A stretch of DNA of 64,000 nucleotides, taken from a virus. The stretch is from IMG/VR virus record IMGVR_UViG_3300031963_000064, positions 1 through 64,000 of that record. One strand, given 5' to 3'. Of this stretch, positions 6,415 through 43,214 are shown one piece after another; position 1 is the stretch's first letter; each line of letters begins with the position of its first letter. Position numbers and translations under genes: made by a program. A model generated the notes under the pieces. It was not told where the DNA came from. It ran no database searches and worked only from the letters and a program-made list of their open reading frames with translations.

Positions 6415-6417
6415 TGG

Positions 6418-6891
6418 TTAAGTTGTCTCTTGTAACATTTTTCTATAACAATCTCTGGCAATAATTGCTTCATCTATCGTATCATAAGTGCCAACATAGT
6501 AGTTAATCTTTTTATGCCACATATTGACTTGATATTTACCAGATGGGACTTTTTTTATATTTCTCAACTCACCATTGGGACATCTGCGATTTATATTTTG
6601 TGTAGAGTTGTCTGCCCATCTTATATTGCCAGGAATATATCCAGAGTTGTTGTTTATTCTATCAATAGAATATCCTTCTGGTCTTTCACCCAAATTTTCA
6701 TCAATATATTTTAGAAACTTTATAAAACCTGGCGGAGTTTGTGTGGTGCCGTGAAACCCTCTTTCAGACCACTCTTCAAAAATTTCTATCCCACGAGCAC
6801 CATACTCTGAATAGTTTATATTTTTTGGATCTTTACATCTGCGTATCATACCATTCCAAGTATGATATAGGGGGTGTTGTGATACTTTCAT
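6418..6891 (-). CDS. HNH-type homing endonuclease with AP2-like DNA-binding domain
   Basis: 157 aa. The N-terminal half carries the phage HNH-like signature: MIRRCKDPKN, YGARGI, DRINNNSGYIPGNIRWA, then Q-N-NRR. The C-terminal 45 residues (SGKYQVNMWHKKINYYVGTY) have the beta-strand pattern of AP2 domains found in homing endonucleases. Such enzymes nick or cut intronless or allele-lacking DNA to spread themselves. It is free-standing between early genes and has its own late promoter inside the loop of an inverted repeat (6894-6969), arguing for temporal control like that of T4 homing endonucleases. Confidence 0.8.
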   Translation of the reverse strand: MKVSQHPLYHTWNGMIRRCKDPKNINYSEYGARGIEIFEEWSERGFHGTTQTPPGFIKFLKYIDENLGERPEGYSIDRINNNSGYIPGNIRWADNSTQNINRRCPNGELRNIKKVPSGKYQVNMWHKKINYYVGTYDTIDEAIIARDCYRKMLQETT

Positions 6892-6893
6892 TG

Positions 6894-6969
6894 TAAGTCT
6901 TGGCGTGACTGATACTATTTATAATAACATATGTGTGGGTCTTACGCAACATAATTCCGCCAAGACTTA
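6894..6969 (-). repeat. 12-bp perfect inverted repeat enclosing a late promoter
   Basis: TAAGTCTTGGCG at 6894-6905 and its exact complement at 6958-6969 can form a stem in RNA reading through from upstream. The proximal arm ends 2 nt before the ATG at 6891, so the stem would cover the ribosome site. The late promoter lies in the loop, so late transcripts lack the distal arm. Confidence 0.75.
6916..6923 (-). promoter_or_regulatory. T4-like late promoter
   Basis: Minus strand TATAAATA, an exact match to the T4 late consensus, 25 nt upstream of the homing endonuclease ATG at 6891. Confidence 0.7.
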
Positions 6970-6985
6970 TTGTTGCTGCCCACCA

Positions 6986-7309
6986 TCAATCACGAGTGCG
7001 CCAATCAGTGTCATCTTCATCTCTCTTAAACCAATCGTGTAAGTCATCAGGAGAATCAAAACCACGACGACCAAATCTTTCGTGACCCAATCCACCAATA
7101 TCTAATTGATTCATAAAGTCGTCTAAGTCACCTTCTACCATATCTGGATTCTCTGCTCTCCTTCTTGCCTGACGAAGGATTGTTGCAGCACTTCGGTTTG
7201 CTTTGGCGAGTTTTTCACACCAAATCATTTCACTTAATTCAACTGACTCACCTTTTACAATCTTATCACAAATTGATTCAAGTCTGAGTCTGTATTGTGT
7301 GGAAAGCAT
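6986..7309 (-). CDS. Conserved cyanophage hypothetical protein (107 aa)
   Basis: Starts MLSTQYRLRLESICDKI, which I recall as a conserved hypothetical of T4-like cyanophages. Helical N-terminal 60 residues with basic ATILRQARRRAE, then an acidic tail ending DEDDTDWRTRD. No catalytic motif seen. Confidence 0.65.
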   Translation of the reverse strand: MLSTQYRLRLESICDKIVKGESVELSEMIWCEKLAKANRSAATILRQARRRAENPDMVEGDLDDFMNQLDIGGLGHERFGRRGFDSPDDLHDWFKRDEDDTDWRTRD

Positions 7310-7329: not shown

Positions 7330-7563
7330 TTATTTATTTTTGTATTCATCCATTAACTCTTTTGCGAGTTTCATAGACCGACGCCACATAAGATACTTCA
7401 CAATCGGATTTGCAGGATTATGTAATATCCACCACTTTGTCTTTTCATATTGAACTCTTGCAAGTTGAGTGAGCATATAAAACCCTCTTGCGACTGATTG
7501 ATCGGTGATAATCAGATATGCGATGCAAAAGAATATGATAAAGTAAATGTATGAGGTACTCAT
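7330..7563 (-). CDS. Small membrane protein (77 aa)
   Basis: Residues 4-21 (SYIYFIIFFCIAYLIITD) form a single N-terminal transmembrane segment, followed by a basic amphipathic cytoplasmic part (KLAKELMDEYKNK). Overlaps the next upstream gene as ATGA. Role unknown. Confidence 0.6.
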   Translation of the reverse strand: MSTSYIYFIIFFCIAYLIITDQSVARGFYMLTQLARVQYEKTKWWILHNPANPIVKYLMWRRSMKLAKELMDEYKNK

Positions 7564-8343: not shown

Positions 8344-9132
8344 TCAGTTAAAAAATTGATCTAAAGGATTAAAAGATCGGATTCGTTCCATTGCCATATT
8401 AACATACTCCTCATGAATTTCAACTCCAAGATACTTCCGTTTCAAATCAATACATGAAATTGCAGTTGTCCCAGATCCCATAAAAGGATCAAGAACTAAA
8501 TCACCAATGTAACTGTAATACTTAATGATACGATCAGACAGTTCTTTTGGATAGGGCGCTAAATGATCTGAATGTGTTTCTGGATTGATCTTCCATACGT
8601 TAGATCGTTCATAGTCTTCATTGACAAGTGATTGCTCTAATACATCACCATCATAAGATCGAACAACTTTATCAATTAAGAATGGTGCTGGTTTCTGAAA
8701 TACAAAGATAGTCTCAGTTACAATGTTTGGTTTGTATGCAACTGGTTTGCGATGTTGAAAGAATCCACCATTACGATTAATTGATGCACCCTCAGGTTTT
8801 AACCAGATAATATCATCAATGTATTTCCATCCCATTTGTTCCATTAAAGTAAAAAAATGAAATGGAATTGCAAGACGTTTACTCTCATGTGCCCGTGATT
8901 GTCTTGCCTCAATCACTGGAGAAAGATTTACAACACACATTCTACCTGGTTGAGTGACTCTTAACACTTCAAGAAACACATTTCTCAAGAAGTCAAGATA
9001 CTCTTGGTAAGTTGGCCAAGTTGAATATTCTCTGGCGTTATAATATGGAGGAGAGGTGCAAGTAAGATGCACACTCTCACTTTCTATTTCTTTTAAAAGT
9101 CGGGATGAATCTCCCTGTAAGATCTGATCCAT
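8344..9132 (-). CDS. DNA methyltransferase, beta class (N4-cytosine or N6-adenine)
   Basis: 262 aa. Catalytic motif IV TSPPY at residues 26-30 precedes the AdoMet-binding motif DPFMGSGTT at 215-223, the order of beta-class amino-methyltransferases; YLGVEIHEEYV follows as in the family. SPPY favours N4-cytosine but N6-adenine is possible. No restriction enzyme is next to it, so self-protection against host restriction or an epigenetic role is more likely than an R-M system. Its 5' end overlaps the HNH gene by 40 bp. Confidence 0.85.
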   Translation of the reverse strand: MDQILQGDSSRLLKEIESESVHLTCTSPPYYNAREYSTWPTYQEYLDFLRNVFLEVLRVTQPGRMCVVNLSPVIEARQSRAHESKRLAIPFHFFTLMEQMGWKYIDDIIWLKPEGASINRNGGFFQHRKPVAYKPNIVTETIFVFQKPAPFLIDKVVRSYDGDVLEQSLVNEDYERSNVWKINPETHSDHLAPYPKELSDRIIKYYSYIGDLVLDPFMGSGTTAISCIDLKRKYLGVEIHEEYVNMAMERIRSFNPLDQFFN

Positions 9133-9557
9133 TGAATTTTTCTACTCGATGCTTTGTTACTATCACAATCACCGTTAATTAGTGATTTTCGACCATGACA
9201 CAGTTTACAATAAGTTTTAACATTGTCTGGAATATTGTTATGATGATCGCCATCTAGATGGTCAAGATCCAAACTGTTTTCAAATCCAACCCATCCATCT
9301 TTAGGAACTGGACAAGTCCATCCAAGATGTCCATCATGATTTTCACAATATGATTTCTTATGAATTGTAACTCCAGGAATTACTTTACCATTCTTTCGAG
9401 CACTAGTGCAACGGGAACATTCGGATTTGAAAGACCAATACTTCCATTCTCGCACAAGAACTTTATTATTACAACCATCATTGACACATGTAGGAAGTTC
9501 ATGCCCTTCGACAAAGAACTTCTCTTTCATTTGTTTGGAAAGACTCAACATAATCAA
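9093..9557 (-). CDS. HNH endonuclease with zinc-finger cysteines
   Basis: 154 aa. The HNH core is DLDHLDGDHHNNIPDN followed by TYCKLCHGRKS, with an upstream C-C pair (CSRCTSARKNG) and ENHDGHLGW. Start at 9557 overlaps the upstream stop as ATGA. The 3' end runs 40 bp into the methyltransferase gene, so the pair is translationally linked. Likely a free-standing homing endonuclease; no late promoter is seen here. Confidence 0.75.
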   Translation of the reverse strand: MIMLSLSKQMKEKFFVEGHELPTCVNDGCNNKVLVREWKYWSFKSECSRCTSARKNGKVIPGVTIHKKSYCENHDGHLGWTCPVPKDGWVGFENSLDLDHLDGDHHNNIPDNVKTYCKLCHGRKSLINGDCDSNKASSRKIQWIRSYREIHPDF

Positions 9558-40462: not shown

Positions 40463-41110
40463 TTATTTATTGGTATTTCTTGTAAAGGTTCTTCCTCTCC
40501 TCCAACCTTGAGGTATTTCATTTTCCTTAAAAACATATCTACTTTCATTGCCATCAGTAATCCACATCATAACACTTTTCCCACTATTCCAAGATTTTTT
40601 ACCATACCTATGATTTTTTTCACCAATTTGTCTCTCACTCAATTTTCTTTTAGTTTCTTCACTCCTTTTTGATCCATAGGATGGATGATCTTTACCAAAC
40701 TTACCATACATATGATTTTTTTCACCTTTTTGGCGGTCACTAAACATTTGTAAAACATCTTTACTATGTCTATATCCGTAGGCAGGATGTTTCTCTCCTA
40801 TTTTACCATACATTGGGTTATTTTTTCCATTCAAACAATAGTAGAATTTAGTTGAAGTCTGTTTTGCTCTATTCGCAAAATGAGGATTTTTATCTACTTC
40901 ATAAAAATTGTGAAGAATTATTTCTGCTTCAAGTGCTTCTTCTACACTATCAAAAGTTTCTAAAATAATCTTTTGAGATGGATTAAAGTTCTTATCGTGA
41001 AAACTTCCAAAGTAATTTACATCTTTTTCTGGAAGACAATCACATTCTCTTTTTCCAATATAACCCCTCCCATATTCCTCATAGGAATAATACACATAAA
41101 AATGTTTCAT
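40463..41110 (-). CDS. GIY-YIG homing endonuclease with NUMOD3-like repeats
   Basis: 215 aa. The catalytic N-terminus reads FYVYYSYEEYGRGYIGKRE, a SegE-like GIY-YIG form, with E in ALEAEIILHNFY. Four PMYGKIGEKHPAYG-type repeats follow (about 95-170) with SEETKRKLSERQ, matching NUMOD3 DNA-binding motifs. The C-terminus (WITDGNESRYVFKENEIPQG) is shared with other phage homing enzymes. Paralogue of the gene at 42624-43214. A TATAAATA promoter lies 26 nt upstream within an inverted-repeat loop. Confidence 0.85.
   Translation of the reverse strand: MKHFYVYYSYEEYGRGYIGKRECDCLPEKDVNYFGSFHDKNFNPSQKIILETFDSVEEALEAEIILHNFYEVDKNPHFANRAKQTSTKFYYCLNGKNNPMYGKIGEKHPAYGYRHSKDVLQMFSDRQKGEKNHMYGKFGKDHPSYGSKRSEETKRKLSERQIGEKNHRYGKKSWNSGKSVMMWITDGNESRYVFKENEIPQGWRRGRTFTRNTNK
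40464..40470 (-). promoter_or_regulatory. Late promoter motif
   Basis: Minus strand CAATAAATA, 34 nt upstream of the ATG at 40430, overlapping the end of the homing endonuclease gene. Confidence 0.55.
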
Positions 41111-41135
41111 ACTACTCTTAACTTGGTGACATAAG

Positions 41136-41143
41136 TATTTATA
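41136..41143 (-). promoter_or_regulatory. T4-like late promoter
   Basis: Exact TATAAATA on the minus strand, 26 nt before the ATG at 41110, inside the inverted-repeat loop. Confidence 0.7.
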
Positions 41144-41147
41144 ATAG

Positions 41148-41169
41148 AAAGGGGCATTTCTGCCCCCTT
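41148..41169 (-). terminator. Hairpin, probable terminator after thyX
   Basis: Minus strand AAGGGGGCA-GAAA-TGCCCCTTT, a 9-bp stem with GAAA loop and a weak T-rich tail (TTTCTATTAT). Confidence 0.55.
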
Positions 41170-41209
41170 ATTCTGCCTTAAATGTGTCACCAAGTTAAGG
41201 CACATTTAT

Positions 41210-42623: not shown

Positions 42624-43214
42624 TCAGTCGGCGTTTGCGTTCGGTATTTGCGAATACCGAATGAACGACCTACTCTTTTTCCACCTACGAATAGAAGTAT
42701 GACTAGTCCCATACATTTCACCAAGTTCTCTAATAGGTATATCTAAGATAGAAGGATTTTTATCTACGTCTTCCAAGAAAACTTTATATCCACCACCCCT
42801 TCTTCTATCATTTAGATATTTTTCAGGAGTGTTGATATAAGTAGATAAATCTCTCAGTCTACCTTTAACCCAACCATTAGGTATTTGGTTTTTATGGACT
42901 AGTTTTTCTTCTATTCCATTATTCACACGAACCATACCATAGGAGCATAGACCAACTTTTGTTGACTTCACCTTATTAGCGAAGTGTTGATTCTCATCAA
43001 CAGAGAAGAACTCATGGAGTTTTATTTCTGCTAAGTGTGCATCTTCTCTAGTCTCGTGGATGGATAGGATAATTTTTTCAGTTGGACTGAAAGTTTCATC
43101 CGTATAACTCCCCATATAAAAATCCATAGAAGGTTCTACAGAAGAACCCCTAGAACCAATATATCCACGACCATAAGGTTCGTATGAGTAGTAGGTATAG
43201 AAAAACATAGGCAT
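42624..43214 (-). CDS. GIY-YIG homing endonuclease, second copy
   Basis: 196 aa. The N-terminal about 85 residues are clearly paralogous to the gene at 40463-41110 (YTYYSYEPYGRGYIGSRG, SPTEKIILSIHETREDAHLAEIKLHEF shortened here). It lacks the NUMOD3 repeats; instead the C-terminus has a helix-turn-helix-like IRELGEMYGTSHTSIRRW. The start could be the ATG at 43214 or 43208. A sigma70-type promoter at 43265-43293 suggests early expression, unlike its paralogue. Confidence 0.82.
   Translation of the reverse strand: MPMFFYTYYSYEPYGRGYIGSRGSSVEPSMDFYMGSYTDETFSPTEKIILSIHETREDAHLAEIKLHEFFSVDENQHFANKVKSTKVGLCSYGMVRVNNGIEEKLVHKNQIPNGWVKGRLRDLSTYINTPEKYLNDRRRGGGYKVFLEDVDKNPSILDIPIRELGEMYGTSHTSIRRWKKSRSFIRYSQIPNANAD

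Follow-up and report, generated by a model that had tools for sequence, protein, structure and literature searches.

A putative mobile 5' leader cassette predicted to limit the translation of free-standing homing endonucleases of cyanophages to late infection

In an 85-kb virus contig (IMG/VR record IMGVR_UViG_3300031963_000064), for which the freshwater Synechococcus phage S-SRM01 is the closest named phage, the gene of an HNH-type homing endonuclease is preceded by two complementary arms which flank a late-promoter motif. This raises the question of what such an arrangement does and whether it belongs to this one gene or to homing endonuclease genes more widely. The stretch analysed, in the following called the window, comprises positions 1 to 64,000 of the record. 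An inverted repeat around the late motif had been described here in the initial annotation, and the two 12-nt arms at 6894-6905 and 6958-6969 are indeed complementary at 12/12 positions, lie 52 nt apart and flank an exact TATAAATA. The locus comprises the following features:

6415..6985, minus strand: putative inserted unit of leader and HNH gene, directly after the upstream stop codon (6986-6988)
6418..6891, minus strand: HNH-type homing endonuclease gene, 157 aa, start ATG 6889-6891 (ORF and PHROG homology)
6894..6905, minus strand: proximal arm CGCCAAGACTTA, 2 nt (CA) from the ATG, covarying with the distal arm across class B (see below)
6916..6923, minus strand: late-promoter motif TATAAATA in the loop, exact, a form of the published cyanomyovirus motif NATAAATA (PMC2984593)
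6935..6950, minus strand: 3' strand of the class B presenting hairpin, GTTGC-GTAAGA-CCCAC (alignment, pair counts, match of covariance model R1)
6958..6969, minus strand: distal arm TAAGTCTTGGCG, in the apical loop of the presenting hairpin
6972..6983, minus strand: 5' strand of the presenting hairpin, GTGGG-CA-GCAAC (same evidence)

On the minus strand the leader thus reads ...TGA-TG-GTGGG-CA-GCAAC-AA-TAAGTCTTGGCG-GAATTAT-GTTGC-GTAAGA-CCCAC-ACATATGTTAT and continues with TATAAATA-GTATCAGTCA-CGCCAAGACTTA-CA-ATG. The gene upstream is conserved (PHROG 507) and had tblastn matches in 460 cyanophage records.

The HNH assignment is borne out by PHROG family 374 (HNH endonuclease, E=4.9e-36) and by further HNH families of PHROG. 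The AP2 part of the initial label found no confirmation, as no Pfam AP2 match was obtained at E<=1. No Pfam domain was found above the cut-off; the sole match, Peptidase_M61, lay below it and was judged spurious. Relatives of the gene occur at eight loci, three of them with 88-90% protein identity, and dN/dS was 0.10-0.18 in comparisons with three relatives. Arms that are lost or not conserved in close relatives would have spoken against the initial interpretation, but both 12-nt arms are identical in all eight, while the loop sequence differs among them. The late motif of the relatives L007-L009 is GATAAATA, and its variation never leaves NATAAATA. At L009:3001-3471 the HNH gene contains an in-frame stop behind an intact leader, possibly a sign of recent decay.

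A second gene of the window, encoding a GIY-YIG endonuclease, carries a comparable leader:

40463..41110, minus strand: GIY-YIG endonuclease gene with NUMOD3 repeats, 215 aa, class A leader
41117..41131, minus strand: class A proximal arm TGTCACCAAGTTAAG
41136..41143, minus strand: class A late motif TATAAATA
41144..41167, minus strand: terminator-like hairpin GGGGGCAGAAATGCCCC followed by TTTCTAT, within the class A loop; the stem covaries in the alignment
41185..41199, minus strand: class A distal arm CTTAACTTGGTGACA, covarying in the class A alignment

The distance from motif to ATG is 24 nt at the HNH gene and 25 nt at the GIY-YIG gene; the near-equal spacing noted earlier is thereby confirmed, its values of 25 and 26 nt reflecting a counting convention. 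Elsewhere in the window, between 46307 and 63022, three paralogous ORFs of about 1270 aa are composed of GYFGGG...TMDKVTYS repeats, with oxygenase- and glycosyltransferase-like genes between them.

For an estimate of how often late motifs are bracketed in this way, every NATAAATA site was scanned without regard to genes in the window, the L002 contig (G001), S-SRM01, G009 and G010 (325 sites), and the chance expectation was derived by re-pairing upstream and downstream halves at random. Arms of at least 12 nt were found around 12 sites against 0.07 expected, and arms of at least 9 nt around 27 against 3.0. In the window alone two of the 18 NATAAATA sites had arms of at least 12 nt, both before endonuclease genes. 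The exact TATAAATA on its own shows no excess over chance (three occurrences, 4.8 expected). At least 20 of the 24 distinct ORFs behind bracketed motifs are nuclease-like, mostly GIY-YIG, HNH and endonuclease-VII-like; two had no PHROG match, and one, behind the site L119:6137 with its 9-nt arms and odd geometry, is not a nuclease, so that this site was taken as chance. Unbracketed NATAAATA sites precede 129 ORFs, mainly structural or other late genes, plus about 20 of nuclease type. The latter, several of which show imperfect arms, lack arms of at least 9 nt, so that the device is common but not universal among such genes. The same follows from two putative minus-strand endonuclease ORFs of the window without a bracketed NATAAATA, an HNH-like one at 9093-9557 (DHLDGDHHNN) and a GIY-YIG-like one at 42624-43214. 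In T4, S-PM2, P-SSM2, S-SM2, S-CBWM1 and DSL-LC03 the scan detected no class A or B leaders and at most one bracketed site per phage; in T4, arms of at least 9 nt bracketed 0 of 65 NATAAATA sites. A third layout, in which arms of 9-20 nt lie tightly around the late motif as a short hairpin, precedes endonuclease-VII-like, HNH and GIY-YIG genes (L102:6349 and L103:2578 in S-SRM01, L133:5942 and L126:8675 in G010, L398:1122 in DSL-LC03).

Comparison of the leaders allowed a distinction of two families, class A, to which the leader of the window GIY-YIG gene belongs, and class B, that of the HNH gene, each of which stands before several unrelated nuclease families. In a refined form this bears out both parts of the earlier suggestion, that the control arose twice or travels with homing genes. 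Class A is arranged as (A/G)CC(T)TGA, distal arm, TCAGGT, terminator-like stem with U-run, TATAAATA, about 4 nt, proximal arm, TAGAGTAG and ATG. Class B consists of GTGGGCAGCAAC, distal arm, GTTGCGTAAGNCCCAC, NATAAATA, proximal arm and ATG, the distal arm being presented within a conserved GGGCAGCAAC...GTTGCGTAAGNCCC hairpin. A pattern scan of 2.9 million viral contigs yielded 64 distinct class B leaders, most of them with arms, motif and ORF, and the class A core pattern 84 distinct leaders, all (84/84) followed by an ORF whose N-terminus, judged by eye, resembles a homing endonuclease. Since sequence patterns were used to pick the sets, part of the conservation in their cores was imposed by the selection, which placed no such constraint on the arms. 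NATAAATA lies between the arms in nearly all leaders, and the geometry is fixed across well over 100 of them. The arms of the two window genes are unrelated to each other, as stated in the initial annotation, but this does not hold generally, for the HNH arm is common to many GIY-YIG leaders. Two GIY-YIG genes of G009 (L109:2631 and L119:11711) have nearly the same arms, both with AACCGCA.

The class B covariance model R1 matches the window at 6890-6987 (E=7.6e-17). A search of whole phage records with it, 1.7 Mb in total, gave six instances, one of them in S-SRM01 and none in T4, S-PM2 or DSL-LC03. By blastn against named phages the class A leader matched S-SRM01 only and the class B leader none. 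The class B core had five matches in 257 Gb of bacterial genomes, 0/5 with a late motif behind it. Five loci, among them that of the window HNH gene (L010), were compared with 4227 Rfam families, and their leaders gave no match at E<=1; a weak hit to a Listeria sRNA was considered irrelevant.

If the arms pair with each other, their changes should be compensated. In the class B alignment 92.9% of the cells are paired, compared to 27-48.5% for slid partners; both-sided changes occur at 8 of 12 arm pairs, the covariation score is 0.286 against 0.081 after shuffling, and the outer pairs of the presenting hairpin covary as well. The class A alignment is paired to 87.2%, with double changes at 9 of 10 arm pairs and at 6 of 7 pairs of the terminator stem. 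The window GIY-YIG gene has 41 relatives, close and distant, whose start is covered, and these keep complementarity through at least six different arm sequences. Because the leaders are related by descent, these pair changes are not counts of independent events. AT-rich phage DNA commonly contains short inverted repeats, and the repeat could in principle be a chance product or a by-product of insertion with no regulatory role; given the permutation test, the covariation and the fixed geometry of well over 100 leaders, we give this practically no credence, and for both families as a whole it is already refuted.

Where the arms are imperfect, G.U or U.G stands at 26 positions and A.C or C.A at three. 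This excess points to RNA in the mRNA sense, and it bears on a reading at the DNA level, in which the repeat would be an operator: the endonuclease, or some other protein acting as a dimer, would bind the repeat or the promoter and repress its own late promoter. Such autoregulation has a precedent in I-TevI, and probably I-TevII and I-TevIII, which bind sites overlapping their own promoters (PMC2988022), and the repeat at the window HNH gene does flank the promoter. A DNA palindrome, however, does not predict G.U rather than A.C mismatches; the arms vary freely as long as complementarity is retained, and the specificity of one enzyme cannot account for the same leader and arm before HNH, GIY-YIG and other genes. 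The asymmetry of the mismatches and the sharing of leaders between enzymes disfavour an operator or cruciform, which we hold to be quite improbable as the explanation of the arms, although an operator role in addition to an RNA switch is still conceivable.

As we read the observed arms, motif, geometry, conservation, compensatory covariation, nuclease link, leader sharing and empty sites, the element is very probably a mobile 5' leader cassette which allows a free-standing homing endonuclease to be translated only late in infection. Transcripts reading in from upstream genes would contain both arms, and the distal arm, shown in a hairpin loop, would pair with the 12 nt that directly precede the start codon and so keep ribosomes from loading. 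Late in infection RNA polymerase with the phage late sigma factor would initiate at NATAAATA in the loop, some 20 nt before the ATG, and the resulting mRNA, devoid of the distal arm, would have an open start region and be translated. The leader would travel with its gene and also be traded between unrelated nuclease genes. Promoter activity, read-through transcription and translational block are what we infer from sequence, as is the selective reason, namely that the nuclease be kept silent until late.

Folding calculations, in which the late RNA was modelled as starting 5 nt after the motif, are consistent with such a switch. The median cost of opening the region -16..+3 was 10.1 kcal/mol in the read-through RNA and 2.5 kcal/mol in the late RNA for class B, and 12.2 and 3.5 kcal/mol, respectively, for class A; it was higher in the read-through RNA for 49/49 class B and 81/81 class A leaders (130 in total). 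The window HNH leader showed a smaller difference (6.9 versus 3.3 kcal/mol), as the nested model lets the presenting hairpin compete and cannot score a pseudoknot, in which both structures could coexist. Without downstream context the long helix is absent from its nested minimum-energy fold; with downstream context it does form, with a z of only -1.2. In most class B late RNAs the proximal region (in the window 6894-6910) can form a small hairpin of its own (AGUC...GACU). The upstream gene has its own AATAAATA (7331-7338), so that late transcripts may also read through into the HNH gene. Class B proximal arms (e.g., CGCCAAGACTTACAATG) contain no clear Shine-Dalgarno sequence and nothing resembling GGAG or AGGA, and class A has only the weak TAGAGTAG.

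The class A loop calls for a further consideration, since its terminator-like stem would by itself halt read-through, so that the arms might act otherwise. The read-through RNA might end at the in-loop stem, and the distal-arm hairpin, freed as a short terminated RNA, might then act in trans as an antisense on its own, an incoming or a competing late mRNA. The class A distal arm in a loop, followed by a GC-rich stem and a U-run, is indeed built like many bacterial small RNAs, and with a good terminator a cis helix would rarely be useful, yet the arms are strongly maintained. The window HNH leader, on the other hand, has no U-run after CCCAC, the known T4 cases act in cis, and avoidance of cross-pairing among the leaders of one genome was a trend only (p=0.13). 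We consider action in trans unlikely, both as the function of the repeat and as the fate of the terminated RNA, though a little less so than the operator. If true, each leader would be a self-encoded RNA silencer that also decides which incoming endonuclease genes are expressed.

The proposed cis-acting leader cassette is also taken to be mobile, and on this point the flanking sequences are informative. In S-SRM01 (L001), which lacks the HNH gene, the flanking genes overlap (ACTGATGAAATC; also written GACTGATGAAATC), and empty sites with directly joined or overlapping flanking genes were also found in L193 and L327. In the window the insertion begins at the leader hairpin, with its first base pairs, and 43 of 56 class B leaders start 4-10 nt past the stop codon of an ORF that lies upstream and has 50 codons or more, compared to 5% of random positions. 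Empty sites and leader starts right after upstream stops indicate that leader and gene act as a single unit of insertion. Leaders of GIY-YIG genes share 84-89% identity with the window HNH leader (89% for the GIY-YIG gene of L197), yet their enzymes show no similarity by blastp to the HNH enzyme. Identity is as high as 93-96% between other leaders whose enzymes are dissimilar by blastp, e.g., those of L175 and L193; pairs with 97-99% involve L161, whose ORF call is doubtful. Near-identical leaders in front of dissimilar enzymes imply that arms and promoter move between enzymes, which suggests that it is the switch itself that travels and is swapped.

Hairpins at the start site combined with late promoters are established for I-TevI, I-TevII, I-TevIII, segB and mobE, and for I-TevI and mobE the regulatory logic has been established experimentally (PMC2988022, PMC3014915). 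As predicted here, early and middle read-through RNAs of T4 I-TevI, and likewise of I-TevII and I-TevIII, hide the start region, and the late promoter of I-TevI is sited so that the late RNA lacks the 5' arm (PMC2988022). The layout differs, however: in I-TevI the hairpin is compact and its 5' arm includes the late motif AATAAATA, whereas here the motif lies in a loop of 50-60 nt between the arms, and the known T4 cases have a consensus Shine-Dalgarno sequence, which class B lacks. T4 segB and Aeh1 mobE, GIY-YIG and HNH genes that are likewise free-standing, also have a late promoter and a hairpin that covers the ribosome-binding site, but they were described as separate cases and not as a leader family exchanged between unrelated enzymes (PMC2988022, PMC3014915). 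The T4 genes e and soc have late promoters within an inhibitory structure which forms on the longer early transcripts only (PMC3014915); the logic is the same, but these are phage genes and not mobile endonucleases, and have no portable leader. Ordinary late genes of the scanned records share the cyanomyovirus motif NATAAATA without bracketing arms. A literature search, confined to open-licence papers and hence weak evidence, revealed no cyanophage case and no shared leader, and in the S-SRM01 paper there is no mention of promoters or hairpins. T4 I-TevI, segB and Aeh1 mobE already follow this logic; what appears to be new is the layout, the swapping and the scale.

In T4 a handful of silenced endonuclease genes were found singly, whereas here a modular cassette occurs in two families with about a hundred arm sequences. 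Class A and B leaders provide a sequence tag for mobile endonucleases in unannotated phage genomes, where most such ORFs are labelled hypothetical. With natural allelic sets of arms and simple, predicted compensatory mutants, the question why homing endonucleases stay silent until late would become directly testable. If the switch is confirmed, it would mean that selfish genes recruit and exchange a ready-made device for late-only expression.
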